From: Chitinophagaceae bacterium
GTDB taxonomy: Bacteria > Bacteroidota > Bacteroidia > Chitinophagales > Chitinophagaceae
Length of the DNA: 45,042 nt
NCBI GenBank assembly: GCA_947447825.1
Contig: CANFLL010000026.1
Coordinates: 1-45,042, forward strand
Reading direction: 5' to 3'
Made by a program: the position numbers and the translations under genes. Every line of letters begins with the position of its first letter. Within the stretch, counting starts at the first letter, position 1. A model generated the notes under the pieces. The model did not search any database. It was not told where the DNA came from and saw only the letters and a list, made by a program, of their open reading frames with translations. Shown one piece after another: positions 25,098 to 45,042 of the stretch.

Positions 25098-25307
25098 GAT
25101 GTATCGGGCAGAACCTGCAGCGGTTCTTGTCAAAACACAGATGCATCGGGTAGAACTTGCTTCGGTTCTTATCAATACACCGATGCATTAGGCAGAACCT
25201 GTAGTGGTTCTTATTAATGCACAGATGCATCGGTCAGAACCTGTAGTGATTCTTATTAACACACAGATGCATCGGTCAGAACCTGTAGTGATTCTTATTA
25301 ATGCACC
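25098..25307. repeat. 42-bp x 5 tandem repeat, each unit with a hairpin
   Basis: Units start at 25098, 25140, 25182, 25224 and 25266. The consensus begins GATGCATCGGxCAGAACCTG and continues TAGTGRTTCTTATTAA. Each unit carries an inverted repeat such as AGAACC-N6-GGTTCT. Frames on both strands are open through it with a 14-residue period because 42 is divisible by 3. I do not regard these as genes: codon use and product are repeat-driven and no start signal is seen. Confidence 0.9.
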
Positions 25308-25455
25308 GATTGATGTATTGACTTGCTATTATTTTTTTAGAAGAAATACTCAAAACATAAAATTGGAATACAACAATAACAGAATAGTAAAAATTAAAGC
25401 ACAAACAAATACTTTATCTAGTTAAAGTAATGAATTTCCTATTTCTGTTGTTTAA

Positions 25456-30935: not shown

Positions 30936-32348
30936 CTATCCATTCCAATGCGTATGAAAAATTCCCTCCTTATCTATTCTTTGATACGTGTGTGCACCAA
31001 AGAAATCTCTCTGTGCTTGGGTTAGGTTCAGTGGAAGCCTATCGGTAGTGAAAGCGTCAAAATAGTTCAACGCATTTGATAATGCCATGTTAGGGATGCC
31101 TGCTTCTGTGGCGGCAACAACAATGCTTCTCAACCCTTTAATCTTGTCATTTATTAAAGCTGCAATTTCAGTATCTAATAAAATATTAGAGATGCCCGGA
31201 TTGTTGTTTGTTACCTTATAGAAAAGTCCCAACATTGCCGAACGGATGATGCACCCTTGACGCCAAACCTTCACCGCATCTTGCAAAGGGATTTGCATAT
31301 CTAAATCTATGGATGCCTTTTGCAACAAAGCCAACCCTTGTGCATAGCAAATAACGATGGCACTAAACAAGGCATCGTGCATTTGTTGTGTGATTGTTTC
31401 TTTGTCTGTAGCAATATTTTTTTCTGGCGAAAGATATAATCCGGCAGCTTTAACTCTGTCAGTTTTTAGCCCAGAAATACTGCGCATCGTTACTGCCGCA
31501 TCTATAACTGGTATGCCCATGCCCAAATCCATTGCACTTTGGCTAGTCCATTTGCCTGTTCCTTTCGATCCTGCCACATCTAGTATTTTATCCACTAAGT
31601 CAGCATCGCTTGTTTCGTCTTTTTGTAAAAAAACAGCAGCAGTTATTTCTATCAAATACGACTGTAAGTCTCCTTTATTCCAACCTGCAAAAAGAGCGTG
31701 CAATTCTGCGTTACCAATTCCTTTTCCACGTTTCAATATGTCATAAACTTCGCCCAGAATCTGCATGATGGCATATTCAATCCCGTTGTGCACCATCTTA
31801 ACATAATGCCCAGCGGCACCCTTACCCATATAAGCAACGCACGATTCGGGACCTTCTTTTGCCGCAATGGCTTCTAGAACGGGTTGAACATTTTTGTAAG
31901 CACTCGCATCGCCACCAGGCATAATGCTGGGACCTGTTCTTGCACCTTGTTCGCCACCAGAAATACCCATACCCATAAAATGAAATCCAAATGCCTTCTG
32001 CGATTCTATTCTACGCATGGTATCTGTGTAGTGCGAGTTGCCCCCATCAATAATTACATCCTCTTTTTCAAGTAAAGGTTGCAGAGAAGAAAGTACATCA
32101 TCAACAGGTTTTCCTGCTGGTACCAACATAATAATCTTACGAGGTTTGGCAAGCGATGCCACCATTTCTTCCAGCGTGTTCACACCTTTCACGATTGTTC
32201 CTGCTGTTGCACTACTTTCTAAAGCATTGGTTTTGGTTTCATCCTTATCGAAGCCTACTACGGCAAAACCATTGTCTGCCATATTTAGTAAAAGGTTGCG
32301 CCCCATTACACCCAAACCAATCATTGCAAAATCAAATTTCTTTTCCAT
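30936..32348 (-). CDS. gnd: 6-phosphogluconate dehydrogenase, decarboxylating
   Basis: 470 residues, full length. The N-terminal Rossmann motif GLGVMG is at 11-16. The substrate-binding SGGEQGARTGPSIMPGG is at 130-146, and catalytic K184 lies in HYVKMVHNGIEY. It converts 6-phosphogluconate to ribulose-5-phosphate with NADP reduction. It is the first gene of the gnd-zwf-pgl unit. Upstream on the minus strand a TAATTTG resembles a -7 box but is one base short of consensus. Confidence 0.98.
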   Translation of the reverse strand: MEKKFDFAMIGLGVMGRNLLLNMADNGFAVVGFDKDETKTNALESSATAGTIVKGVNTLEEMVASLAKPRKIIMLVPAGKPVDDVLSSLQPLLEKEDVIIDGGNSHYTDTMRRIESQKAFGFHFMGMGISGGEQGARTGPSIMPGGDASAYKNVQPVLEAIAAKEGPESCVAYMGKGAAGHYVKMVHNGIEYAIMQILGEVYDILKRGKGIGNAELHALFAGWNKGDLQSYLIEITAAVFLQKDETSDADLVDKILDVAGSKGTGKWTSQSAMDLGMGIPVIDAAVTMRSISGLKTDRVKAAGLYLSPEKNIATDKETITQQMHDALFSAIVICYAQGLALLQKASIDLDMQIPLQDAVKVWRQGCIIRSAMLGLFYKVTNNNPGISNILLDTEIAALINDKIKGLRSIVVAATEAGIPNMALSNALNYFDAFTTDRLPLNLTQAQRDFFGAHTYQRIDKEGIFHTHWNG

Positions 32349-32550
32349 CTTAAATGCTTAATTGTGCTACACAATATTATTTTGAGGGCGCAAATTAGAC
32401 AATTGAATGCATCGTATTTCTGTTTTTACCTATATCGGCAATTTGAGATTGCTTTCAAACAGGACTTTTAATAGCTTTAGACTCAATTTAAAAAATACAT
32501 TATTTCCTTATTATGATTTAATTGAGTTATACCTGATTAATTGAATAATC

Positions 32551-33750
32551 TTACGCCAACCTTTCTATTATCCATTTTATGGAAAGAATAATTGCAATTA
32601 TTGACCCTGTATTCTTTAGATGAGCGTAATAGGCTTTAGTACTTAAAACTAATAATACAGGCAAAATAACCAGAACCACACACAATTGAGTGGCTTCTAT
32701 TCCTAAGTTAAATCCTAGAATACTGAGCGCCATTTGCTTCATTTGTAAATGCAGGTTAGATAAAACAGTGGCAAAAGCCAGACCATGTACTAGCCCGAAA
32801 CCAGTAGCAATATAAATTTCTTTACCATAAAACATGGGTTTGATACAATGAATGGCGGTGATGAATATGGATAAGGCAATTAATACTTCCACTGGTTTTG
32901 AAGGTAATTGTAGAATTTCCAAGGCACCTAATATTAGTGTGAAAGAATGCCCTATAGTGAAAGCGGTTACAATTTTTAATAACCTCATGAAAGTATATTT
33001 TCTGTTGTTGGCATTAATCCACTTTTTATTAACCACTATTAATGATGCTGGCAATAGCAATACCAATAAAAATAAAAGATGATCGGTACCTTCTGTAATA
33101 TGCTGTACCCCAAGCCAAAACATATTTGAAAACCCTTTCCAGATGCTACCCTTCTCTAAATTAATTTCAAATGGTCTGACAACATTATTTTTTGTGTCTA
33201 AACTGATAACGCCTATCTGTTTATCCTTATTATTAACAATGCCATTTTCCCAGTCTTGGGTAATTGAAACCAATGCACTGTGGGTTACAACCTGATGAAT
33301 AATTACATCATATAAAAGCAATAATTTTTCATTCCTGTTAATTTCAGTATTTGATTCAAACTCTACAGTTGCAAGTGTTTCGCTATAAGTTCCATTGATT
33401 TCAGAATTTGCCGAATCGTAACTTACTGACGTTACTTTTTTATCCCAGATATGATTAGTTTGATCTATTAGTTTTATGTGTGTACCAATGTATTGCTTTA
33501 GCTGATTATTGTTTTCTCTCACAAAGGTTGCTACATCATTGTTCATAGATTTTCCGTACGCCAATTCTAATTCTGATACAGGCAATTTTAACTGTAATAC
33601 AATCTTCTTTTGCTCAATTTTTATCTGAACAATTGAATTAGGCATAGGATGCGCTTCTAGATTTAATGGCATAATTACCACAAAAAATAAAAACAACAGC
33701 CACTTATTAAAAAAGTGGCTGTTTAAGCGGGGGGTGCGAAATAGAACCAT
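32551..33750 (-). CDS. HupE/UreJ family membrane protein with extended N-terminal domain
   Basis: 399 residues. A signal peptide (~15-33) precedes a ~170-residue periplasmic beta-domain, then a HupE/UreJ-like membrane part from ~205 with about six helices. Conserved His/Asp residues of the family are seen: GVQHITEGTDH (H217, D223, H224), GHSFTL (H268), H301 and GLVHGLAFA (H322). HupE/UreJ proteins are implicated in nickel or other metal uptake; the ion here is unknown. Its ATG overlaps the stop of the DUF3500 gene (TAATG), so the two are translationally coupled. Confidence 0.88.
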   Translation of the reverse strand: MVLFRTPRLNSHFFNKWLLFLFFVVIMPLNLEAHPMPNSIVQIKIEQKKIVLQLKLPVSELELAYGKSMNNDVATFVRENNNQLKQYIGTHIKLIDQTNHIWDKKVTSVSYDSANSEINGTYSETLATVEFESNTEINRNEKLLLLYDVIIHQVVTHSALVSITQDWENGIVNNKDKQIGVISLDTKNNVVRPFEINLEKGSIWKGFSNMFWLGVQHITEGTDHLLFLLVLLLPASLIVVNKKWINANNRKYTFMRLLKIVTAFTIGHSFTLILGALEILQLPSKPVEVLIALSIFITAIHCIKPMFYGKEIYIATGFGLVHGLAFATVLSNLHLQMKQMALSILGFNLGIEATQLCVVLVILPVLLVLSTKAYYAHLKNTGSIIAIILSIKWIIERLA

Positions 33751-35363
33751 TACTGCTTGATGAATTTAGTTTGTGTTGATTGACTTTCTGTTTGAAGGGA
33801 TAAAAGGTAAGTGCCGGTATTGAGCTGCGAAACATCAATATTAAATACACTTGAATTGGCAACTGTACTACTTAAGACGAGCCTTCCCCTCAAATCAAAC
33901 ATTCTGTAACTAATATTGCTACCTGATAGGTTCTGCGAAACCGACAACTTGTCTCTGGCTGGGTTTGGATATACTTGAATCAGAACTTCACTTTCAATAT
34001 AAATCCGCATTATGCTAGAATACTGCACAGTGCCATCATTACTTACACTCTTTATCCTGTAATAATTTGTTCCCTTTTGTGGACTGTAATGCAGGTAATT
34101 ATACTTACTGCCTTGCAAATTGTTGGCTGAAAGAATGGAAGCTATCGAGCTGAATGTTTTTCCATCAGTACTGTGTTCTACTTCAAAATGATTGTTATTG
34201 AGTTCATAAGCTGTTTGCCAGTTTATCGAAACAAGGTTGTCATTTACTTTGTAAGCAGATGTTGATTGGAATGTGATAGGCAACGTGACAGTAGTGTCGC
34301 TTCCTACTTGTGATGTATAAATTCCGTTAGTGCTACCTGTTCCACCAAAATCTCTTTTGTGATCTCTCCAAATACTATGATAATGCACCCCCGAAAGAAT
34401 AATTCCTCCTTGAACGGTAAATTCTATCCAAACACCCGGACCATCAATTCTAACATAATCCGTTTTTGTAGTAAGTGCAGTAGTGCCAGAATAAGCGATG
34501 TATGTTGAATCTAATTGATTTTGGTATTGTGCAAGAATGTTTGCGGCATTAACACTATCCACATCTAATACGTATGTTTTAATAGCAGCCATTACCAATG
34601 CTTTTTTTGCTGAGGATAGTGTTCCAACTCGTAAACCAACTTTTGTTGTAGGAAACTGCCAGTCGTGAGAAGTGCCTCCATTTGCTGGTCCAAGAAGAAT
34701 ATCACTAAAAGTTTGAGAAAGCTTTGCAGAAGCTAGTTCTGTTGTCGATAAGGCCGTTAACATAGCTGTAAAAGCAGTAGACTCTTGAGACATAGGTGCA
34801 TAAGTGACCCCATTTGTAGTGAAAGACAATGGCTCTATTGCTTCAAAGTGTGGGGTTGGCCCAACCAAAACACCATTGTTGTAAGTGTTGGCAACTGTTT
34901 TATGGTGACCGGTCATCATAATTTCAAAAGTACCTGTAAGTGTCGGTGTACCAAAAAAAGCTAAGTAGTAATTGCCTGCACCATAAGGCGAACCACCACC
35001 ATGTGCGTAAAGATAGTCATCTGCTAGCCAAAGCTGCACAATTTCATCCCATCCTTCATTTGGAATATTTTGTCCAGCCATTTCCTTTATTAAAACTTTT
35101 GCGGCGGCTAATTGAGTCGAAGTTAATGAACCTAATTTAATACCTAATCTCGAACTCATTGCAGCAGGTAAATTACTCCAAGTTTGTGAGTTTGAATAAG
35201 TGTATGCAAGTTGTAATGTACTAACTTGAGAGGTGGTTAACATTGCCTTTAAACTGTCTGCTAGTTTAACAAGATTTTCAACCGACCCAGTTGTGCCAGC
35301 CGTAGATTTTTCAAAAATAAATGACAAGAGGATTGCAAGAAATAGGTGTCGTGTGTTACGCAT
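33750..35363 (-). CDS. DUF3500 protein with type IX secretion sorting domain
   Basis: 537 residues. A signal peptide (1-22) is followed by the DUF3500 domain (~40-350), with LWLADDYLYAHGGGSPYGAG and FEIMMTGHHKTVAN. A fibronectin-like stretch (~370-450) and a type A T9SS sorting domain (~455-537, VYPNPARDKLSVSQ...LNTGTYLLSLQTES...KFIKQ) follow. It is therefore exported across the outer membrane and probably surface-attached. The function of DUF3500 is unknown; the conserved His and Asp residues in YAHGGG and GHH may bind metal. It is coupled to HupE/UreJ downstream. Confidence 0.88.
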   Translation of the reverse strand: MRNTRHLFLAILLSFIFEKSTAGTTGSVENLVKLADSLKAMLTTSQVSTLQLAYTYSNSQTWSNLPAAMSSRLGIKLGSLTSTQLAAAKVLIKEMAGQNIPNEGWDEIVQLWLADDYLYAHGGGSPYGAGNYYLAFFGTPTLTGTFEIMMTGHHKTVANTYNNGVLVGPTPHFEAIEPLSFTTNGVTYAPMSQESTAFTAMLTALSTTELASAKLSQTFSDILLGPANGGTSHDWQFPTTKVGLRVGTLSSAKKALVMAAIKTYVLDVDSVNAANILAQYQNQLDSTYIAYSGTTALTTKTDYVRIDGPGVWIEFTVQGGIILSGVHYHSIWRDHKRDFGGTGSTNGIYTSQVGSDTTVTLPITFQSTSAYKVNDNLVSINWQTAYELNNNHFEVEHSTDGKTFSSIASILSANNLQGSKYNYLHYSPQKGTNYYRIKSVSNDGTVQYSSIMRIYIESEVLIQVYPNPARDKLSVSQNLSGSNISYRMFDLRGRLVLSSTVANSSVFNIDVSQLNTGTYLLSLQTESQSTQTKFIKQ

Positions 35364-35545
35364 AAAAGTGTTTTTTTAAGTTGTTTAACGGTAGATGCCG
35401 AACAAAAATAAAATGCTGCACTAATTGGCGAAAAGAGCTTTTTAGTCGGTAAAACAGCTTTATTGTATTAAAGCATTGAAAATGATATTTTGAAAATGCC
35501 AATAAACCGACAGGGTGTTTTGTTACGGAGTAAAATAAAACTAAA

Positions 35546-35824
35546 CTACTTCACCTCGTACCCCTTCGGGTTTTTCACGAACTCATCCTTACACCCCTTA
35601 TTGCAAAAAGCGATTATTTTTCCTTGATAAAGAAGCGAATCTGCAATGCCAAACTTTAGCTTCATACCACAAACAGGATCTTTTGTATTGCTGAATTTGA
35701 TGTGAGTGAAGTCTTTTTTGGTACTACTAGTGGTATCCATTACAGGCTTGTTTGTTGGTTGGGGGTTGTTGTTGCAACTAAGAATAGTTACAACAATAAT
35801 AATTAAAAGTATTTTATAATTCAT
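35546..35824 (-). CDS. YHS-domain lipoprotein
   Basis: 92 residues. The lipobox TILSC gives a lipidated Cys at 17. The mature YHS domain has KDPVCGMKL (48-56) and the Cys pair in IAFCNKGCKDEF (C74, C78). YHS domains occur in copper-transporting ATPases and metal-handling proteins and are thought to bind copper or other soft metals through these Cys. It lies 1 bp after the PepSY gene on the same strand, at the end of the proposed copper operon. Confidence 0.88.
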   Translation of the reverse strand: MNYKILLIIIVVTILSCNNNPQPTNKPVMDTTSSTKKDFTHIKFSNTKDPVCGMKLKFGIADSLLYQGKIIAFCNKGCKDEFVKNPKGYEVK

Positions 35825-35825
35825 G

Positions 35826-37415
35826 CTATTTGTTATTTTTCTTTCTAGTTTTAAAATACAAAATCAGTCCAATCACCACCATCGCTATCTGAGATGCAGC
35901 CCAAAACATAGTGCTGAAATCGCGCCATCCTTTTCCTGCAAAGTCCATAAAGTGATGTTTATGAAGGAAGTTGAAACTAAGCGCATCCCAAATATCTGTA
36001 TCATCCGTTTTTTTGGATAGCTTGCCTGTCAGTGTCTCTACATAAAACCGTTCATTATGGTTAGTGGTATATTGCACTTTCCAAACAGGCAGACGCTTAT
36101 CCGTGAAATTATATTCCTTCTCTAGCTTGGTAATTACCGTTGTTGCTTTTATTTCAGTTTCAAGATGATTACTAAATGAGGTAGCCAAAAAATTTGCATA
36201 TTGCTTCTCTCCGTCTATCAAAACACTGCCTTTGTTTGTACTGATGTAAATATTGGATGGAGGAGGAACACTCATATCTTTCATCATATCCTTTCCCTTG
36301 AGAGAAGTTGTTGGCTTTTTGCTTGTTGAATTTGTGGTTACCTGCCAATAATTACTGCCATTAATACGCACCAAGTTGATGTTTGTAATAGGCTGCTTTG
36401 CAACGGACTTAAGTTGAGAGAAGTTGAAATTGATTTGATTGACTGCAAAATTGTTTTGGATAAAATATTTATCTCGAACATCTTCCTTGAACTTAGAAAA
36501 AGCATGAAAACCTCCACTGAAACTAAATAACAAAGTGAATAGTGAAATGAATACAGACGTATATCGATGGTTGCGCCTAGCAGTTACTTTATCATTTCCA
36601 ACAACCTTTTTACTCTTAGTAGTAAAGAAAATGTAAATGCCTATCAAGCTAGTTAGAAAGGTTAAAATGGATAGTATTACTTCTATTACCAATCTTCCAT
36701 TTCCCAAGAAATCCAACCATCCCATATTGTGAATCAATTGAAAGAAAAGAGTAAACGCATACCTGTTGTTATCTATTGCCGTTGCAAACCTATCTTGACC
36801 TGTTTCTACGAAAATCCTTATACCATCTTCTCTGTCAAATTCAACTCTATAGACAGGTAACAATCGATTGATGGAATTATATTCCTTATCAAATGCTTGT
36901 ACATAATCCACACTTTTAACCTTACTTCCTGTTTTGCCATTCAAAATAAAGTTGGTTGCAGCATTGCAACAATCGTGGGATGCAGTAATAGGAATAATAT
37001 TAGTATTAAATGCTTTGTGATTGGAACTATCCTTTTTTTGTCCTTCTAAAAACTGTTTTGCTAAGTATTGTGCGTATAACCAGTCTCCGTTTGCTAGCAA
37101 CTTTCCTGTGAGGGTACTATAGTATTGCAGTTCGATTTTATTATTTAGTTTAACTTGATAAAAATAATCATTGTTAATATGTACAATTCTGAATGTCTGA
37201 AAGCTATCTATTCCATTTTGTGTTAAAGCAGTTTGAAGTGGCACAGTTATTTTATTGCTATCGATTGCAACAGGCATCAACCACTGAGTGGCCACTTTAG
37301 GGCGAATGTTAGTCATTATTGGATGCAAGAATCCACTTATTGCCCAAAGACAAACCGGTATTGCAATTATTAAAGAAATGGTACGATGCCATTTGTATAT
37401 GTTTTTGCGTATCAT
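35826..37415 (-). CDS. PepSY domain-containing membrane protein
   Basis: 529 residues from the Met in MIRKNIYKWHRTISLI. The upstream in-frame ATG at 37448 would prepend 11 residues absent from typical family starts. Four membrane helices are visible: ~8-29, ~245-270, ~280-300 and ~500-520. Two PepSY-like periplasmic regions, each with a YARRLPVW/INRLLPVYRVEFD-type phrase, lie between them. This architecture matches the 'iron-regulated membrane protein' family, which often accompanies TonB receptors and may reduce or move metals at the inner membrane. It follows the receptor by 62 bp. Confidence 0.87.
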   Translation of the reverse strand: MIRKNIYKWHRTISLIIAIPVCLWAISGFLHPIMTNIRPKVATQWLMPVAIDSNKITVPLQTALTQNGIDSFQTFRIVHINNDYFYQVKLNNKIELQYYSTLTGKLLANGDWLYAQYLAKQFLEGQKKDSSNHKAFNTNIIPITASHDCCNAATNFILNGKTGSKVKSVDYVQAFDKEYNSINRLLPVYRVEFDREDGIRIFVETGQDRFATAIDNNRYAFTLFFQLIHNMGWLDFLGNGRLVIEVILSILTFLTSLIGIYIFFTTKSKKVVGNDKVTARRNHRYTSVFISLFTLLFSFSGGFHAFSKFKEDVRDKYFIQNNFAVNQINFNFSQLKSVAKQPITNINLVRINGSNYWQVTTNSTSKKPTTSLKGKDMMKDMSVPPPSNIYISTNKGSVLIDGEKQYANFLATSFSNHLETEIKATTVITKLEKEYNFTDKRLPVWKVQYTTNHNERFYVETLTGKLSKKTDDTDIWDALSFNFLHKHHFMDFAGKGWRDFSTMFWAASQIAMVVIGLILYFKTRKKNNK

Positions 37416-37477
37416 AATTATTACATTTTCGAGAAAGGAGGCAAACAATAGTTTATTATTTGCCTCCTATGTTGATA

Positions 37478-39757
37478 TTATTTTCCGAAATGGTAGGAAA
37501 CGCCCAACGTTGTTTCTCTAGGGTCGCCTAAACTATAACTATAGCCATAAGTTGATTTACTAGCCAAAATAGAATAGTATTTATTGAAAGCATTTAGTGT
37601 GTTTACCCAAACTTCAAAACGAGCTACATTGTAACCTGCCCTGATGTTGAACACATCGAACCCGCCATACTTTCCACTATTCGCATTGTTGAGGTAATAA
37701 CTACTAAGGTGTTGCCATTCTACTCCTATTCTTAATCCTTTAGCAAATGCAGGTTTATAAGTTACCTCTGCATTGCTAATAAAGTGTGGTGCACCTGCAA
37801 TTTCGTTTCCGCTATAGTCAATTCCTTTTTCTACGTCCTTCACAAAAGTGTGTTTGGCATTTGTTGCACTAAAGCGTAGCTGCCATTGGCTTGTTGGCTT
37901 GTATGTAATGCCATATTCTATGCCTTGATGCTTTGTTTTACCTGCGTTCTGATTTTGATAAGTGCCATCATCCTGACGAACAGAAATAATTTCATTTGTA
38001 CCTTCCAATAAGTATAAGCTGTAGTCGGCATATAACTTATTATCCAAAATATTTATCCATCCACCAATTTCATAGTTAAAAAAAGTTTGGGGTTGTAAGT
38101 AAGGCACTTTTACACTATTAAATAGTTCTGTAACCTGTGGAGGAACATACCCCTGACTGTAGTTAGCATAAAAACCAACATGCTTATAATTATAGGTTGC
38201 CCCAATCTTAGGCGTAAACCGATTAAAGTTATTTACTGTAGAAGGTGCACCAGTGGATGCCGAGGGGGATAAATAATTTTGGAAATCATAATGATAATAA
38301 TCGTATCGCAATGCTGTAACAATCTTTAATCCTTTGGCTGGGCTTAACTCATAACTGGCATAAGATGCGATGTTGCTGATTCCTGTTTTATAGTTACTTA
38401 ATAAAGAATCGGTGTTGATGAAGCTGATATATTTACCTGCACTATTTCTTTGAATTTTAATATAATTAGCCACATAAGTACTAGGGCTAACATCCACACT
38501 AATGCCAGCAATCAACTTGCTTTTTAACCAATTAAATCGTTGAACATGCTGCCCGATAAGCATGTAGCTTTTGAATGAACTATTGTTCAATTGTCCATTG
38601 GCTAATGCACTATTACGATAATTATTAGTAACATAGTAAGAAGGATTTTGCTTTACAGCATTATCTCTGTAAGCAGCTGTTAGTTGAGATTCACTGTTGC
38701 TATACCATTGATGTACCAATTGCGATTTTACCCTCAAAGCTGTTACAGTTCGGTTGTTGAAAGTGTATAGTGTGTTGTAATTTTTTTGTGCAAAATGAGC
38801 ACTATCTAAACTGCCACCACCCATTTGGCTGTAATAATCGACGTAGGTAATGCTGTTATTCCAAGATGTTTTATTATTTATTTTATAATCACCTCTTACA
38901 GTAAAGGCTGTTTTATGAAAATCAGTTTGATCAACTGGTCCATTTGTTCTATTTGCATAATAACCGCTAACCAATAATCCGAATTTGCCTAAAGTATTAC
39001 CTGCTTGTGCGTCTATTCTTTTATATCCACCATCAGTACCTTGTACACTGATGTTCGCATTAGCCAAAGCGGGAGGAGCTTGGGTAATTATATTAACAGC
39101 ACCACCAATAGCTTCTGCCCCATACAAGGAAGATGCTGGGCCTTTAATAATTTCAATTTGCTTCGCAGCAACCATGTTCATCTCCAGTAAAGCATTGTGA
39201 TTGTATATACCTGTGGTACGAATGGGTACACCAACTTCTAAATACAGGAACAAACTTCTGGTAGTTAGTGGTTGCCTGATACTCATTTCATGTTGCTCAT
39301 TTTGAAGGTTTACCATAAACACACCACTCACTTTGTTTACAAGATAATCTAACCTATTTGCTTTTGCATCTTTAATTGTTTGCTGACTAATAGTGGAAAT
39401 GGCAATAGGTGCTTCTGTTCTTTTTTCTGCAATACGGCTAGCACTTACAACAACTGCTTCCAAATCGTTGTTGACAGGCGAAACTGAAAAATTAAAACTA
39501 TTGCTATTACCAACTAAAACAGTTCTAGCTTTATAATTGATAGAGCTTATGGTCAATTCTTTAGCATCAGTAGTAAGGGTAAATTTACCTTCTGCATCCG
39601 TAATGGAAGTATGATGCTGTGCATCTGAAACCGTTGCACCACTAACAGGCTCTTTACTAAGCGAGTCATATATTTTGCCTGATATTGTTTTTGTCACTTG
39701 TGCTTTCACTACCGAAAGACTTAGTATCAACGTTAAAATAAATATTACTTTTTTCAT
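37478..39757 (-). CDS. TonB-dependent receptor
   Basis: 759 residues. A signal peptide (1-19) precedes a carboxypeptidase-regulatory-like domain (~22-105), common to Bacteroidota receptors. The plug (~110-225) has IKGPASSLYGAEAIGGAVNI, and the 22-strand barrel ends LGVSYHFGK. It belongs to the metal/siderophore-type receptors by size and is not a SusC (which is ~1000 residues with a SusD partner). Context with MbnP and MbnH-like proteins suggests copper, free or chelated, as the cargo; that is inference. It lies 1 bp downstream of the small membrane protein gene. Confidence 0.93.
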   Translation of the reverse strand: MKKVIFILTLILSLSVVKAQVTKTISGKIYDSLSKEPVSGATVSDAQHHTSITDAEGKFTLTTDAKELTISSINYKARTVLVGNSNSFNFSVSPVNNDLEAVVVSASRIAEKRTEAPIAISTISQQTIKDAKANRLDYLVNKVSGVFMVNLQNEQHEMSIRQPLTTRSLFLYLEVGVPIRTTGIYNHNALLEMNMVAAKQIEIIKGPASSLYGAEAIGGAVNIITQAPPALANANISVQGTDGGYKRIDAQAGNTLGKFGLLVSGYYANRTNGPVDQTDFHKTAFTVRGDYKINNKTSWNNSITYVDYYSQMGGGSLDSAHFAQKNYNTLYTFNNRTVTALRVKSQLVHQWYSNSESQLTAAYRDNAVKQNPSYYVTNNYRNSALANGQLNNSSFKSYMLIGQHVQRFNWLKSKLIAGISVDVSPSTYVANYIKIQRNSAGKYISFINTDSLLSNYKTGISNIASYASYELSPAKGLKIVTALRYDYYHYDFQNYLSPSASTGAPSTVNNFNRFTPKIGATYNYKHVGFYANYSQGYVPPQVTELFNSVKVPYLQPQTFFNYEIGGWINILDNKLYADYSLYLLEGTNEIISVRQDDGTYQNQNAGKTKHQGIEYGITYKPTSQWQLRFSATNAKHTFVKDVEKGIDYSGNEIAGAPHFISNAEVTYKPAFAKGLRIGVEWQHLSSYYLNNANSGKYGGFDVFNIRAGYNVARFEVWVNTLNAFNKYYSILASKSTYGYSYSLGDPRETTLGVSYHFGK

Positions 39758-39758
39758 T

Positions 39759-40058
39759 CTAGTTGTTTTCTTCGTTTATAAATTTGAATAATTCTATTTC
39801 AGTGCTTTTCTCATGGTATTTAATGACCATCATTCGGTAAAACATTTTTATGCTTAAACCTAGTACTATCGTTACCAATAGGAAAACAGTATAAATTAAG
39901 CCTGTTTCAGAAACAGCCCAATGCCCAAATGATTTTCCATAAATTTTGAGAAACCAGAACATGATTACCAACAATCCCACAGTTGATAATTCCTTTAGTA
40001 TCTGGTAATAACGCCAGTATTTCAGCCCTTGGCTGATTAATTTTATTAATAATTTCAT
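39759..40058 (-). CDS. small two-helix membrane protein of unknown function
   Basis: 99 residues from the Met in MKLLIKLISQGLKYWRYYQI. An upstream ATG (40130) would overlap the preceding gene by 20 bp and add an unlikely Arg-rich leader. Two hydrophobic helices (~27-42 and ~55-75) and a charged C-terminus (EKSTEIELFKFINEENN) are visible. No family is recognised. The 1-bp gap to the receptor gene indicates translational coupling, so an accessory role for the receptor is plausible. Confidence 0.72.
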   Translation of the reverse strand: MKLLIKLISQGLKYWRYYQILKELSTVGLLVIMFWFLKIYGKSFGHWAVSETGLIYTVFLLVTIVLGLSIKMFYRMMVIKYHEKSTEIELFKFINEENN

Positions 40059-40110
40059 TGTAAAAATTTTAGTATAAAAATTAAAACTCGTTAGTTGATT
40101 TGTTCTGGTT

Positions 40111-41034
40111 TTAAAACGCCATCGAAACATGAAGCATCAATCTATTATTTGTTTGTACAAATCCATTAGCCAAATTCTGACTAATTGGTGTCTGCCAGCT
40201 ACCACCCACACTTAGTTTATTGAACGCAGCCTCCATGCCAATGCTGCCCAGAACAACTCTCCCACCAGATATGTCTACATTAAATCCTGTATTAAAGTCT
40301 TCATCCGCCTTTTCGTAAACTGCACCAGCATTGGGTGCTAGAGAGAGATTATGCTGTGGACGAAACTTATAATACAACTGTGCAGTAGTACTCAGTTTAT
40401 TGCCATACTGATAATGATGACTATTGCTACTATTCATTTTATAGCTTGCATTTACATTAATGCCTGCATCTTGCAAACGCAAATCGTACATGGCATTCAG
40501 CATATAATCCACACTTCCTGTCCCCAACTGAAACAGGTTAGTGTTCTGAGTACTTCCTTGTTTCTCCGCAGGATTATATTCACCCGTGGGTAGCTTAATT
40601 CCTCCTCCTATCCAAAGAGATTGTGATAAACGCTTAGAGGTACATACCGTTATGTCTTGTTTAAATGCCAGAAAATAACCTGCAAATGCAATGTCACCTA
40701 TTCCTTCTTTGTGGGTTACATTTCCTTGGTTCAGTCGCTCATTAAAGCTGTAAGGAATAGAAGCCATAAGCCTAAAACGTTTACCTAAATTCCATCCTCC
40801 CCACAATTCTGCCGAACGATAAGACTCTGTTGTAGTCAGATAACTCTCTAATCCGCCCACGCCTACATGCGTTTTCAGCGAATTGTAACGATACCTAAAG
40901 CCTATAATCTTCTTTTTAAAGTCGGGGAGTATACCATTATAGTAGCTACTCACACCACAACCACATATATCGCAAGCCATAGTTTTGGAAACAAACAAGT
41001 AAACAAAAATTAATATTAAAAGACTTTTTTTCAT
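40111..41034 (-). CDS. outer-membrane beta-barrel-like protein with N-terminal CDICGCG motif
   Basis: 307 residues. The signal peptide ends MA|C at residue 21, and the mature protein starts CDICGCGVSSYYNG: three Cys in seven residues, a compact soft-metal site. The rest is alternating aromatic beta-strand ending in LMLHVSMAF, with a C-terminal Phe as in outer-membrane barrels. The signal could also be a lipobox. I infer a copper-binding outer-membrane channel or transporter-like protein from the motif and the neighbouring MbnP and diheme peroxidase. The reported activity of this family is unknown to me. Confidence 0.82.
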   Translation of the reverse strand: MKKSLLILIFVYLFVSKTMACDICGCGVSSYYNGILPDFKKKIIGFRYRYNSLKTHVGVGGLESYLTTTESYRSAELWGGWNLGKRFRLMASIPYSFNERLNQGNVTHKEGIGDIAFAGYFLAFKQDITVCTSKRLSQSLWIGGGIKLPTGEYNPAEKQGSTQNTNLFQLGTGSVDYMLNAMYDLRLQDAGINVNASYKMNSSNSHHYQYGNKLSTTAQLYYKFRPQHNLSLAPNAGAVYEKADEDFNTGFNVDISGGRVVLGSIGMEAAFNKLSVGGSWQTPISQNLANGFVQTNNRLMLHVSMAF

Positions 41035-41046
41035 GTTATTTTTTTA

Positions 41047-41153
41047 TAACCACTAACCACTAACCACTAACCACTAACCACTAACCACTAACCACTAACC
41101 ACTAACCATTAACCACTAACCACTAACAACTAACAACTAACCACTAACCACTA
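41047..41153 (-). repeat. heptanucleotide tandem repeat (about 15 x CCACTAA)
   Basis: About 15 near-perfect CCACTAA units (TTAGTGG on the transcribed strand), with variants CCATTAA and CAACTAA near the right end. It fills almost the whole gap between the diheme peroxidase (stop 41156) and the CDICGCG gene (start 41034), ending 13 bp before that start. Such arrays change length by slippage and could alter promoter spacing or leader length, making downstream expression variable. Confidence 0.93.
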
Positions 41154-41155
41154 CT

Positions 41156-42190
41156 CTACTGTTCCGAGAATCGTTTGTCAAGCAAAAAGCTTCTATCACT
41201 AAGTGTCTTTAAAAATGCTAAGAGCTTTGTTTTATCATCAGCCGATAAAGAAATTCCCAACCTTCCATTTTGTTGTAGCAATGGGTCTAGGTTAGGTGTA
41301 TTCCGCACACCACTATTGTAAAACTCAAGCACACCATCCAAATCAAAGAATCTTCCATCGTGCATATAAGGTTCGGTATAAAAAATGTTTCGTAGGCTAG
41401 GTACTTTAAATTTATACCTGTCAGCGCTATCCAATGTTACCAAATAACGTCCTTCATCATTCAATCCACTCACTGGCAATCCATTATTCCTAAACGAATA
41501 GTCGGTAAACAATGGTTCTTTATGGCAGCCAGCACATTTCTGCTGAAAGAGAGTATATCCTGCTTTTTCGGTAGCAGTAAACGCCGCCCCTTCACTACGC
41601 ATTACGCTGTCGTACTTCGAGTGGCTGCTCACACACATTGCCATAAACTGCGCCATCGCCTTTAAAAATCGGGTGCCAGTTATTTCAGGTGTGCCAAAAG
41701 CCTTCTGAAACAGTGCCGGATAAGTAGTAGTCTTATAAAGCTTCGCCAATACATTGCCAATGGTATCATCCATTTCCACATGATTAGCGATAGGTGCAAG
41801 CGGTTGTAAATCCAAATCGAAAATGCCTCCATCCCACATAAAAGAAGTACTCCATGCCAAATTCATAATTGGCGGACTATTCCGTTTACCCAATCTATCA
41901 TAAATGCCATGACTAACACTGTGTCCTGGATGAACAAAAGCCGATGTTTGAATATGACAACTACCACAACTGATGGTATTGTTGTGAGACAATATGGGGT
42001 CGTAAAAAAGCTTTCTCCCCAACTCAAAACCTGCTTGAGTAACGTTATTTGTTGAAAAATGATACACAGGCGCAGGAAAGTTAGCAGGTTGCAGAAAGCC
42101 AACAAAGGGAGCATCAATCTCTTTCTTGCAGGCATAAATGCCCACAAGAAAGAAGATGATGGCTATAATAGTATTGCGTTTAATACTCAT
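41156..42190 (-). CDS. diheme cytochrome c peroxidase, MbnH/MauG-like lipoprotein
   Basis: 344 residues. A lipobox (GIYAC, Cys 21) anchors it in the periplasm-facing membrane. Two c-type heme motifs are visible: CGSCH (75-79) and CAGCH (219-223). Conserved family blocks GRKLFYDPILS, PIMNLAWSTSFMWDG and FKVPSLRNIFYTEPYMHDGR are present. Bacterial CcpA/MauG relatives either reduce peroxide or oxidise a partner protein. MbnH oxidises a Trp of MbnP to kynurenine, and an MbnP-family gene lies 83 bp upstream on the same strand. I therefore favour the MbnH-like role, but sequence alone does not exclude a peroxidase. Confidence 0.88.
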   Translation of the reverse strand: MSIKRNTIIAIIFFLVGIYACKKEIDAPFVGFLQPANFPAPVYHFSTNNVTQAGFELGRKLFYDPILSHNNTISCGSCHIQTSAFVHPGHSVSHGIYDRLGKRNSPPIMNLAWSTSFMWDGGIFDLDLQPLAPIANHVEMDDTIGNVLAKLYKTTTYPALFQKAFGTPEITGTRFLKAMAQFMAMCVSSHSKYDSVMRSEGAAFTATEKAGYTLFQQKCAGCHKEPLFTDYSFRNNGLPVSGLNDEGRYLVTLDSADRYKFKVPSLRNIFYTEPYMHDGRFFDLDGVLEFYNSGVRNTPNLDPLLQQNGRLGISLSADDKTKLLAFLKTLSDRSFLLDKRFSEQ

Positions 42191-42273
42191 TTGCAGCTTG
42201 AGTTTTACGTTTTACGTTATAAGTTGTACGTACAACCTGTAACTTAAAATTCAAAATTTAAAACAACAAAAAG

Positions 42274-43086
42274 TTAGTTCTCCGTATGGTCATGCCTAAA
42301 CATTCCACTTGTAAAGTTGGCAGCAATGTTAGCACTATAAGCATCCGTCATCACCATTGGGTGTGCGGCAATACTAACAGTATTAGCACCAGAGAACATC
42401 TTTAGCACGTCCACCATTAAATGAATATTCGTTTCCTTACCAGCTTTCACTTTAGGCGCACCTCTAGCAGTCAAATCGAGTGTGATGGTTTTAATGTTGT
42501 TGATGGTAGGTGTTGTTTTTCCGCCAAATAAACCAATATGGTAATAAAAACTATTACCGCCCATGCCGCCCATTGATGGAACTTGTGGCGATGTGCCCTC
42601 TAGTTTGTAAAATATATACCCACTATTCCATGTCCAGTACATGTCAGCAGCAGCACCCGTTACATCAAGATCTCCAGTGCGTTTGCTAGCATCTAGTGTA
42701 TTGCGAACACTATCAACACCCAAAACAAAGGTTACTGACTTGTATTCTCCTTCTGGAATATCAAAAGATGGCTCATAAGTACTAGAATCACCTTCTACCA
42801 CCAAATGGTAACTACTGTCTTGAGGAACTGTATAAACAGTACCATTCACATTTGTAAAAGAGAAATTACTTACAAAATATTTAAGCTTGGTAATGCTAGT
42901 AATAGAGTCCCCATTGGCAGTTTTGTATTTGCCAGTATTTAGTTGCAAATCCTGAGAGCCTGCTACGTTGTCAAACTCCACCGAAAGTTCTGCTTTCACA
43001 CTACTATTAAAGGAGGTTGTGCTATCTTTTTTACAAGAAACAAAGAATAAAGAAGCTGTTATAATTAATAAGAAAATACGTTTCAT
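42274..43086 (-). CDS. MbnP-family copper-binding lipoprotein
   Basis: 270 residues. The lipobox FFVSC gives Cys 18. The mature protein has the MbnP pattern: LKYFVSNFSFT (68-78), PEGEYKSVTFVLGVDSVRNT (111-130) and MYWTWNSGYIFYKLEG (149-164). The Trp pair W151/W153 includes the likely target for oxidation by the MbnH-like partner. A Gly/Met stretch (SMGGMGGNSF) and a C-terminal HDHTEN could add copper ligands. MbnP proteins bind copper in methanotrophs and also occur outside methanobactin operons. The two genes are adjacent, MbnP first. Confidence 0.85.
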   Translation of the reverse strand: MKRIFLLIITASLFFVSCKKDSTTSFNSSVKAELSVEFDNVAGSQDLQLNTGKYKTANGDSITSITKLKYFVSNFSFTNVNGTVYTVPQDSSYHLVVEGDSSTYEPSFDIPEGEYKSVTFVLGVDSVRNTLDASKRTGDLDVTGAAADMYWTWNSGYIFYKLEGTSPQVPSMGGMGGNSFYYHIGLFGGKTTPTINNIKTITLDLTARGAPKVKAGKETNIHLMVDVLKMFSGANTVSIAAHPMVMTDAYSANIAANFTSGMFRHDHTEN

Positions 43087-43146
43087 ATACTTTTTAATAT
43101 GTTATTTAATGATAAGATAATCCACAATACACGCTGAGTTAAGAGG

Positions 43147-43238
43147 GGGCGCATAAAAGTTTTTCGCTTTATAAATTATGTTGCGAATGTAGAGACGCAT
43201 ATCAATGCGTCTTAAAAGCGCAAATCTTTTATGCACCC
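43147..43238 (-). repeat. 92-bp nested hairpin repeat upstream of the MbnP gene
   Basis: The outer arms 43147-43170 (GGGCGCATAAAAGTTTTTCG on) and 43213-43238 pair over about 24 bp with few mismatches. Inside lies a perfect hairpin AGACGCAT-ATCA-ATGCGTCT (43193-43212). The inner element looks like REP-type hairpins found in many Bacteroidota intergenic regions. It lies between the 48-residue protein gene and the MbnP gene. Confidence 0.7.
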
Positions 43239-43265
43239 ATAAACAGCGCGAATTGTAGAAGATTA

Positions 43266-43412
43266 TTAATGAATGATGTTGTTATATAATTTTATTAGCC
43301 CAGCATAATTAAGTGCTGCAATCAGAGAAGCAATCACCACCAATATGAGTGTGATGCTTACACGCACACGCTTAATTACGGCTGGATTATACCAATCTTG
43401 TTGGTGTTCCAT
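43266..43412 (-). CDS. 48-residue single-helix membrane protein
   Basis: The ATG at 43412 is preceded by AAAGGG, a strong ribosome-binding sequence. The product MEHQQDWYNPAVIKRVRVSI plus a hydrophobic helix (TLILVVIASLIAALNYAGLI) ends LYNNIIH. The basic KRVRV before the helix suggests the N-terminus is cytosolic. No family is recognised. It sits in the same orientation between the Cys-rich protein gene and the MbnP gene, so it may be part of the copper cluster. Confidence 0.6.
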   Translation of the reverse strand: MEHQQDWYNPAVIKRVRVSITLILVVIASLIAALNYAGLIKLYNNIIH

Positions 43413-43700
43413 ACCCTTTAAATGATTAATGTTAAGTGATTAATGATTGATCGAATGTAGAAATTCAAAAGTTGAGAGTATTAGGTTCAATACATGACGC
43501 AACATGCTCATTTCATAACATAATACATCATGAATAGAAATTGATACCTGAAAGAAAAAAATAAAATAAATAAGTAGACAATGAATTAAAAACTCACAGC
43601 CTGTAAAGAATACCCAAAGACTCTTGACTTAGAACTTATTACTTTCAACTTTCGACTTTCAACTCCCGACTTTCAACTTAAAATCTAAAACCTAAAACAA

Positions 43701-44075
43701 CTAAGCACTGGGTGGGTGGAAAATAGAATAGGATATGTCAATTGGTTTGCCATCATTTGAGGATTGATAGGCAATTTCTAACTCCCTTGAAATAGGAGTG
43801 GGGATATGATAAAAAAAAGATTTAGATGATAATACTTCAGACTCTTTACTTGCTTTGCGCTCACTACTTTGCTTGTCCTCGTTAGTGTCCTTATTTAGGC
43901 GTTTACGCAATTGACACTTACCCGCACAGCAACTTTTAGGCTTAGTTCTGTTTTCGCAAAGATTGGTGGCAATATATTTTTGATTAGCGTAGAAACTACA
44001 AACAATAACGGCCTTACTAAACATCTGTGCCGTAAAGGCAAAGAGAAATAGTATTGCAATAAATTGTTTAATCAT
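43701..44075 (-). CDS. small exported Cys-rich protein (CCxGKC), first gene of the copper cluster
   Basis: 124 residues from the ATG at 44075. A longer upstream frame is an artefact of the satellite. A signal sequence (1-20, MIKQFIAILFLFAFTAQMFS) is followed by ATNLCENRTKPKSCCAGKCQ, with C40, C49, C50 and C54 forming a tight thiol cluster, then a Lys/Glu-rich linker and the tail ISYSIFHPPSA. Similar small proteins with a C-x8-CCxGKC pattern are, to my knowledge, seen beside Bacteroidota copper or TonB loci; metal binding is inferred from the Cys spacing. A TACATTTG -7 box ends 4 nt before the ATG. Confidence 0.8.
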   Translation of the reverse strand: MIKQFIAILFLFAFTAQMFSKAVIVCSFYANQKYIATNLCENRTKPKSCCAGKCQLRKRLNKDTNEDKQSSERKASKESEVLSSKSFFYHIPTPISRELEIAYQSSNDGKPIDISYSIFHPPSA

Positions 44076-44079
44076 GCCG

Positions 44080-44087
44080 CAAATGTA
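44080..44087 (-). promoter_or_regulatory. -7 box (TACATTTG) of the copper cluster
   Basis: On the minus strand TACATTTG, a perfect TAnnTTTG, ends 4 nt before the ATG at 44075, so the transcript would be leaderless or nearly so. The -33 region falls inside the satellite array and has no TTTG. Confidence 0.6.
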
Positions 44088-44088
44088 T

Positions 44089-45042
44089 GTGTTTGAACCA
44101 TAATATTGTAAGAGTGAACCATGAATTTGCAAGAGTGAACCTTGATTGTGTAGGATCGAACCATGAAATTGTAGGAGTGAACCATGAATTTGCAAGAGTG
44201 AACCGTGATTGTGTAGGATCAAACCATGAATTTGTAAGAGTGAACCCCAACTAGTGTAGGAGTGAACCTTGATTGTGTAGGATCGAACCGTGAAATTGTA
44301 AGAGTGAACCCCAACAAGTGTAGGAGTGAACCTTGAATGTGTAGGATCAAACCATGAAATTGTAAGAGTGAACCCCAACTAGTGTAAGAGTGAACCTTGA
44401 TTGTGTAGGATCGAACCATGAAATTGTAAGAGTGAACCCCAACAAGTGTAGGAGTGAACCTTAACTAGTGTAGGATCGAACCATGAAATTGTAAGAGTGA
44501 ACCCCAACAAGTGTAGGAGTGAACCCCAACAAGTGTAGGAGTGAACCTTGAATGTGAAGGATCGAACCATGAAATTGTAAGAGTGAACCCCAACTAATGT
44601 AGGAGTGAACCTTGATAGTGTAGGATCGAACCATGAAATTGTAAGAGTGAACCCCAACAAGTGTAGGTGTGAACCTTGATTGTGTAGGATCGAACCATGA
44701 AATCGTAAGAGTAAACCCTCAACAAGTGTAGTAGTGAGCCTTGATTGTGTAGGATCGAACCATGAAATTGTAAGAGTGAACCCCATCAAGTGTAGGAGTG
44801 AACCTTGATTGTGTAGGGTCGAACTATGAAATTGTAAGAGTGAACCCCAACTAGTGTAAGAGTGAACCGTGATTGTGTAGGATCGAACCATGAAATCGTA
44901 AGAGTGAACCCCATCAAGTGTAGGAGTGAATCTTGATAGTGTAGGATCGAACCATGAAATTGTAAGAGTGAACCTCAACTAGTGTAGGAGTGAACCTTGA
45001 TAGTGTAGGATCGAACCATGAAATTGTAAGAGTGAACCTCAA
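44089..45042 (-). repeat. higher-order satellite array (~21-bp monomers in ~64-bp trimers)
   Basis: At least 950 bp, running off the window. Monomers are A (ATGAAATTGTAAGAGTGAACC, 21 bp in this orientation with minor changes), B (CCAACAAGTGTAGGAGTGAA plus CC, 22 bp) and C (TTGATTGTGTAGGATCGAAC plus C, 21 bp). In most of the array the order is A-B-C, about 64 bp. Nearest the promoter (44100-44240) B is replaced by an A-like monomer, ATGAATTTGCAAGAGTGAAC. All minus-strand frames are open because 64 is not a multiple of 3, giving spurious ORFs. Confidence 0.93.

Follow-up and report, generated by a model that had tools for sequence, protein, structure and literature searches.

Copper-responsive leader peptides are known from Bordetella and from Rhodobacter capsulatus. 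The Bordetella peptide CruR has a CXXC motif and a C-terminal RAPP motif 45 residues apart, an unstructured Rho utilization (rut) region with more C than G inside the leader, and a gap of 162 nt; its arrest motif governs Rho termination, and CruR homologues elsewhere also precede MbnPH-like genes, according to PMC9426467. In vitro, CruR was reported to arrest at both of its Pro codons (PMC12992588). The R. capsulatus peptide CutF has a signal peptide, a CxxxC motif and a PP-rich end, and its stalling is strengthened by copper (PMC9973294). CorA is a copper-repressible surface protein of a methanotroph, in which the copper is held by two His, a water molecule and a Trp-derived kynurenine (PMC3912023); MbnP is described as having no marked sequence similarity to CorA (PMC3621798). 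The DNA analysed here is contig CANFLL010000026.1 of a Chitinophagaceae assembly (4.65 Mb, 97.4% complete), the entire 45,042 bases of which are called the window below. Nine of its genes, headed by a small gene for a Cys-rich protein (the leader), probably form a methanobactin-independent copper-acquisition operon under a copper-sensing arrest leader that works like CruR. This reading is based on the gene content, the conservation of the families, the C-terminal Pro-Pro (PP), the spacing, the operon-head position, the nucleotide bias, the candidate ligands, and the predicted folds of MbnP and of a barrel protein. The new element would be the leader, by analogy a variant of the copper-responsive leader kind.

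The leader protein had no Pfam or NCBIfam match, and no match was common to 40 members of its family scanned singly. A search with the window leader found the family in 89 of 117 same-family genomes, the source genome included, and a 40-member profile gave matches in 120 of 296 genomes of the phylum. The 119 leaders compared were the window leader, 78 family-level leaders and 40 phylum-level leaders, the latter hand-picked for lineage spread among the matches listed. The family search returned 118 matches including the source genome's own, and the best-scoring 80 of the other 117 were taken; an adjacent second copy in genome G060 was skipped, and two leaders were excluded, that of L118 because it is cut at the contig end and that of L126 because of a stretch of unknown bases. 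PP lies at most 15 residues from the stop in all 119 complete leaders, compared with 14 of 390 other open reading frames (ORFs) of 80-200 aa in the same loci. The motif is FHPP in 85 leaders, FRPP in 11, FKPP in 3 and FQPP in 3, with other forms fewer. The PP was also present in each of 20 leaders whose detecting match ended short of the motif, and the result is therefore not a product of the search model. All four Pro codons are in use at both positions, which indicates that it is the peptide that is conserved.

The remaining anatomy of the leader is also well conserved. C40, C50 and C54 were present in 79 of 79 aligned family-level leaders, and the last Cys of the CxxxC lies 63-74 residues from the PP (SD 1.8; 117 leaders with both placeable). 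The mean pairwise identity of the 32-residue linker was only 0.08, whereas that of the Cys block was 0.43 (1452 pairs). In the closest relatives the first ~80 residues and the SYSIFHPP end are conserved, and the linker is changed. Most of the leaders satisfy the filters of the CutF-like catalogue (shorter than 150 aa, PP in the last 15 residues, same-strand next gene within 1000 nt). Of the features used in a screen for arrest peptides in upstream ORFs, the conserved C-terminal end and a spacer of more than 30 aa are present, and the targeting segment was recognized by crude hydrophobicity only, in 101 of 119. In the initial annotation, the Cys-rich exported protein was read as one of the structural parts that bind copper, a role that is not supported: both its anatomy and its position are what would be expected of a regulatory leader (arrest) peptide.

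The position of the leader is nearly constant. In 111 of 117 loci the leader shares its strand with the next ORF of 80 aa or more, and the preceding gene was on either strand (61 and 47); in one of the six exceptions (L135), MbnP still follows the leader on the same strand. The gap to the next gene has a median of 125 nt, compared with 40.5 nt for later neighbours (n=111 and 446, p ~5e-16). Pfam analysis of 114 first genes revealed 51 receptors (plug domain), 25 MbnP, 8 PF13557 barrels, 5 YtkA, 3 SCO1/SenC and 2 MauG; there was no gene before the contig end in L101 and L144, and none within 1300 nt in L086, L229 and L232. The clusters found downstream in the 119 loci were the receptor (58), a CDIC-motif barrel protein (42), MbnP (34), MbnH (32), PepSY (18), a BNR lipoprotein (15), YHS (10) and SCO1 (10). 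The window joins MbnP-MbnH-CDIC to receptor-PepSY-YHS, modules which are mostly separate in the other leader loci. Starting from MbnP, a same-strand leader was found upstream in 13 of 20 loci chosen mainly by MbnP score (19 high scorers, with three near contig ends skipped, and the second copy of the source genome). It was also upstream in 76 of the best 80 of 381 named MbnP loci, all 76 with the PP end; this set leans toward linkage, because it was found with MbnPs already linked to leaders. The leader-MbnP-MbnH-CDIC order recurs in relatives, so that the conserved neighbourhood proposed as a check in the initial annotation does exist, and it is far beyond chance. Two further arrangements were seen beside leaders. 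In 15 loci, L108 among them, the receptor is followed by a BNR-repeat lipoprotein with Cys pairs, often in the place of PepSY; and in L105, L124 and L129 the first gene encodes a lipoprotein with Met and His motifs, with no MbnP nearby.

The RNA of the leader is biased in composition. The last 135 nt contain more C than G in 118 of 119 leaders (mean C 0.267, G 0.151), compared with 137 of 390 size-matched ORFs. The excess is located in about the last 120 nt of the leader and the first 30 nt past the stop, and a residual excess was found at synonymous positions (p 1.6e-10; against other genes, p 1e-15). A Rho gene is present in the source genome. No terminator-like site was found on the minus strand between 40000 and 45042, and an intrinsic terminator in the leader spacer was therefore rejected; a riboswitch was likewise rejected, with no Rfam match at E up to 1 within 32000-45042.

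From these features we infer arrest, copper as the ligand, Rho action, the direction of control and transport, in the following way. The ribosome would translate the leader, whose hydrophobic N-terminus may direct the chain to Sec. The Pro-Pro of FHPP, on entering the ribosome, would arrest the chain with the CxxxC already outside the tunnel, and the Cys block would then probably be at or past the periplasmic side of Sec. The CutF authors allow about 47 residues for tunnel and membrane (PMC9973294); the distance of about 67 residues is longer, and an exported leader would thus have its Cys block on the periplasmic side at the moment of arrest. At low copper, the stalled ribosome would mask the C-rich, G-poor end of the leader and block Rho loading, and the operon would be transcribed. 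Copper bound to the Cys block would free the arrest; the leader would be completed, Rho would terminate in the spacer, and uptake would end. Of the products, MbnH may oxidise a Trp of the MbnP WxW motif and so create the copper site; the receptor, perhaps together with the CDIC barrel, would carry copper complexes across the outer membrane; PepSY might reduce Cu(II) in the periplasm; and YHS, in relatives also SCO, could pass the copper on, probably to heme-copper oxidases. A wider proposition is about evenly balanced between true and false: that the FHPP leader is a Bacteroidota-wide, independently evolved arrest peptide which reads copper during its own export, with a linker kept in length as protein and in C over G as Rho-loading RNA, and which controls a modular regulon (receptor/PepSY, MbnP-MbnH, CDIC, SCO/YHS) convergent with that of CruR.

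The copper-acquisition function of the locus is likely and well supported by homology. MbnP matched Pfam PF20243 with 167.8 bits (cut-off 27). Its model (mean predicted local distance difference test score, pLDDT, 86) had six matches in the Protein Data Bank (PDB) at E up to 0.001, all chains of 7l6g, the MbnP of Methylosinus trichosporium, with template modelling (TM) scores of 0.51-0.60; the WxW motif aligns with 7l6g in a profile comparison. A single-sequence PDB search gave an unrelated chance match only, and a profile search instead reached 7l6g. W151 and W153 stand at the positions given initially, and W151 was found in all 37 MbnPs from the loci compared; H183, H222 and H267, candidate ligands, are invariant among the 12 closer MbnPs only. 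The neighbouring protein scores as a MauG-type diheme enzyme with a Tyr at the place of the distal Met. Two CxxCH motifs were found in 33 of 33 homologues, and Tyr291, kept in 32 of 33, aligns with a Met of the solved peroxidase 4aal, which is presumably an axial ligand. The PF20243 match, the 7l6g fold, the CCP_MauG domain and the two heme motifs thus bear out the MbnP and MbnH/MauG-like names first proposed. No match to the MbnB-type enzyme (PF05114) was found in the 97.4% complete assembly, in agreement with the initial finding that no methanobactin biosynthesis gene is present; a methanobactin or ribosomally synthesized and post-translationally modified peptide (RiPP) reading was rejected on this ground. 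What stands of the original proposal is a probable methanobactin-independent copper uptake locus that is conserved, without an MbnB-type enzyme, and whose parts are copper proteins or their analogues; the Cys-rich protein as one of the copper-binding components does not.

The other membrane proteins of the locus could also be placed to some extent. The model of the CDIC protein (mean pLDDT 80) resembles the COG4313 and FapF outer-membrane barrels, with 4rl8 and 5o67 in the first ranks (target-normalised TM 0.62-0.68); however, the identity is only 13-17%, and the CDIC protein has an N-terminal CxxC (CDICGCG). This likeness suggests that the protein could be a channel. The outer-membrane part of the entry role first suggested for the barrel is consistent with the model. 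PepSY matched Pfam PepSY_TM (43.7 bits, cut-off 28.8) and has five His conserved in 18 of 18 homologues. It had been proposed as an inner-membrane carrier; the work on Bordetella CrpH, which supports heme-copper oxidases and which its authors speculate to be a copper reductase, points instead to a periplasmic reductase (PMC13038864). The YHS lipoprotein has C52, M54, C74 and C78 in 10 of 10 homologues, and SCO1 and YHS genes are recurrent in related leader loci. The 48-residue ORF proved to be a genuine gene, as first annotated: it is 81% identical in L233 and 50% identical in L237, in the same place, with no counterpart found in L234-L236. The other small membrane protein has a homologue of 99 aa (76% identical) ahead of the receptor in the same-genus genome G047; the 123-aa protein of the window therefore probably begins 24 codons downstream of its ORF start.

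Several observations weigh against the CruR-like reading. At the thresholds used, no leader match was found in 28 of 117 family genomes and 176 of 296 phylum genomes. Seven of the 20 MbnP loci lack a leader, including the second MbnP of the source genome, as do 4 of the best 80 of the 381 named ones. The motif is FHPP, not RAPP or RGPP, and distant leaders retain just the PP. A simple test for a hydrophobic N-terminus was passed by 101 of 119 leaders, and also by 175 of 390 controls. Amino-acid choice accounts for most of the C-over-G bias (0.092 of 0.116). MbnP and MbnH fall below the cut-offs of the NCBI equivalogs TIGR04052 (48.4 vs 140) and TIGR04039 (197.4 vs 362.85); MbnP is thus a divergent member. 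Receptors are common in Bacteroidota, and copper is only a candidate substrate for that of the window. Comparison of the leader profile with one DUF2946 protein (the CruR family) by hhalign gave no similarity. Four plasmid MbnH loci were also inspected, and a leader-like head was seen only in that of Ideonella dechloratans (H6, beta-proteobacterial), where a DUF2946 gene ending in RGPPALA is followed after 197 nt by MbnP, MbnH and a receptor; the gene behind this receptor is not PepSY by Pfam. Finally, the leader spacers fold somewhat more stably than control gaps (mean z -2.26 vs -1.64, p 0.007; 97 spacers, 80 of 215 controls), and the z of the window spacer is about -3.5.

The extra stability of the spacers leaves room for a hairpin-based variant, in which the sign would be opposite, as in CutF: copper on the nascent leader would prolong the stall and a spacer hairpin would switch the genes on, serving copper handling or tolerance instead of uptake under scarcity. 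The CxxxC of the leader, shared with CutF, and the copper-strengthened stalling of the latter (PMC9973294) also speak for it. However, the first genes are receptors and MbnP, which fit scarcity; no outer-membrane efflux (OEP) family was among the 18 listed for first genes, although OEP is the commonest neighbour in the CutF-like catalogue (PMC9973294); and the C-over-G RNA and long gaps suit CruR better. Ribosomes of Bacteroidia are reported to work without Shine-Dalgarno use (PMC9976891), and masking of such a site is thus less likely. The opposite sign is therefore considered unlikely; an mRNA hairpin as the main device was set aside and kept as a rival, since the excess of structure over the controls is moderate.

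A slightly less likely explanation is that the leader is an ordinary exported copper chaperone, in which FHPP would be a docking tail for a partner and translational control would play no part. The conserved Cys block would suit such a protein, as would the N-terminal hydrophobic stretch in 101 of 119. It would, however, hardly be expected to have a linker of fixed length at 8% identity, a PP kept even without the FH, a constant operon-head place with a long gap, or a C-over-G bias with a synonymous component. With about the same low likelihood, the locus might serve another metal or a metallophore (iron, nickel, cobalt) with MbnP/MbnH as passengers, since receptor and PepSY_TM pairs serve iron siderophores too (PMC13038864) and the nearest solved relatives of the receptor by sequence include siderophore, B12 and pyrroloquinoline quinone (PQQ) receptors, but MbnP, MauG-type MbnH, SCO1, YHS and Met/His-rich proteins are repeatedly found in company downstream of a single leader family.

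The features of the locus are listed in Table 1. All nine ORFs of the list are on the minus strand, from 44075 down to 35546, as initially annotated. Pfam names five of the products: YHS, PepSY_TM, the TonB receptor (plug and barrel), CCP_MauG and MbnP; nothing over the cut-offs was found for the CDICGCG protein, the two small membrane proteins and the Cys-rich protein.

Table 1. Features of the candidate copper-acquisition locus, in window positions.
Feature	Position	Strand	Remarks
Leader gene	43701..44075, stop included	-	124 aa, ATG at 44075; hydrophobic at the N-terminus, then Cys block and variable linker, with FHPPSA as the C-terminal end; proposed copper-sensing arrest peptide
Codons of conserved Cys block, C40 to C54	43914..43958	-	
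Last 135 nt of leader, proposed Rho-loading RNA	43704..43838	-	34 C vs 14 G
FHPP codons, proposed arrest site	43710..43721	-	
288-nt spacer 3' of leader, proposed termination zone	43413..43700	-	
48-aa membrane protein	43266..43412	-	Kept in two relatives
MbnP-family lipoprotein with WxW (W151, W153)	42274..43086	-	
MbnH-like MauG-type diheme lipoprotein	41156..42190	-	
Heptamer repeat, 15 copies, between MbnH and CDIC genes	41047..41153	none	
CDICGCG outer-membrane barrel protein	40111..41034	-	
Small membrane protein, probable start 24 codons into ORF	39759..40130	-	
TonB-dependent receptor	37478..39757	-	
PepSY_TM membrane protein, proposed periplasmic copper reductase	35826..37448	-	
YHS-domain lipoprotein	35546..35824	-	

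Among named relatives, those closest by MbnP are metagenome assemblies of Chitinophagaceae. The gene order leader, 48-aa membrane protein, MbnP, MbnH, CDIC is common to L233 (MbnP 92% identical) and L237, and L234-L236 retain the leader, MbnP, MbnH and CDIC. In genome G047 of the same genus, a leader (L083) stands before genes for the small membrane protein, the receptor, YHS and SCO, with no MbnP nearby; this arrangement suggests that two leader-headed units were fused to give the window operon. Beyond YHS, the following two genes of the strand (32551-35363) encode a DUF3500 protein with a Por-secretion C-terminal tail and then a HupE/UreJ_2 membrane protein. They recur in none of 80 other leader loci and were rejected as members of the unit, which thus stops at YHS. 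Some repeats were also seen. A 64-bp tandem array (21-bp sub-period) at 44094-45042 extends from ~18 bp ahead of the leader start codon to the contig end, and the operon promoter must therefore sit inside or beside a satellite-like repeat. The MbnH-CDIC gap is filled by near-perfect TAACCAC heptamers, three copies of which occur in the MbnP-MbnH gap of L235; slippage-based variation of expression is possible. Elsewhere in the window there is a 42-bp tandem repeat of five copies (25098-25310).

In the open-licence literature that was reached, no paper was found that treats FHPP leaders or the MbnP operons of Bacteroidota, and copper uptake and its control in Bacteroidota were not found as a studied subject. 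The survey of RAPP/RGPP leaders (PMC12992588) calls the TonB-related ones universal in Gram-negatives and reports Bacteroidota as an exception in which copper-related ones were not found; a leader family with a different motif would close this gap. If the reading is true, the leader family would be a simple genomic marker of copper-uptake operons, MbnP/MbnH outside methanotrophs would be tied to copper nutrition, and FHPP would be a new arrest motif for ribosome research.

The MbnP-MbnH part of the window is related in idea to the methanotroph CorA/CorB and MopE. Its MbnP has the fold and the aligned WxW of the described MbnP, and the gene of a MauG-type partner adjoins. In contrast to the described pair, it stands without an MbnB-type enzyme, scores below the NCBI equivalog cut-offs, and is combined with the CDIC barrel, receptor, PepSY and YHS.

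The leader is similar to known arrest peptides of the RAPP type, including SecM, ApdA, ApdP and the RQH family, in being a small unannotated ORF with a probable N-terminal hydrophobic segment, a conserved C-terminal end and a spacer of more than 30 residues (PMC10987492). Bacteroidota-specific arrest candidates with C-terminal Pro are described there upstream of sec genes; whereas the FHPP leaders, in which arrest is proposed from these likenesses, precede neither sec nor yidC. With CutF the leader shares its position, the CxxxC and a PP near the C-terminus; however, CutF acts positively with copper ahead of an oxidase gene, and its spacing is 45. List D of the CutF-like catalogue contains Bacteroidota proteins (19%, or 40% normalised), and the FHPP family may be among them; the commonest neighbours in that catalogue are the efflux (OEP) genes (PMC9973294).

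The comparison with CruR of B. pertussis, which heads the cruR-crtA-crpH operon, concerns the way of working, not membership of one family. The DUF2946 profile had no match in the source genome, nor among 40 leaders at E up to 10, and homology was rejected after these profile searches and hhalign. The DUF2946-MbnP-MbnH-receptor order of Ideonella is an analogue that speaks for the CruR-like reading. Among the other plasmid MbnH loci, those of Diaphorobacter (H1) and Pseudoalteromonas (H3) have no annotated DUF2946 head, and in Hymenobacter (H2, a Bacteroidota plasmid) a small ORF without Cys block and PP end stands before the MbnH-like gene. The FHPP leader has CxxxC where CruR has CXXC, FHPP where it has RAPP, a spacing of ~67 instead of 45, and it belongs to another phylum. 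Both, however, are small ORFs at the operon head with conserved Cys and a C-terminal Pro-Pro at near-fixed spacing, and both have RNA with C over G; in both, a long gap precedes the genes of a TonB receptor and a PepSY_TM protein (PMC9426467; PMC12914433).

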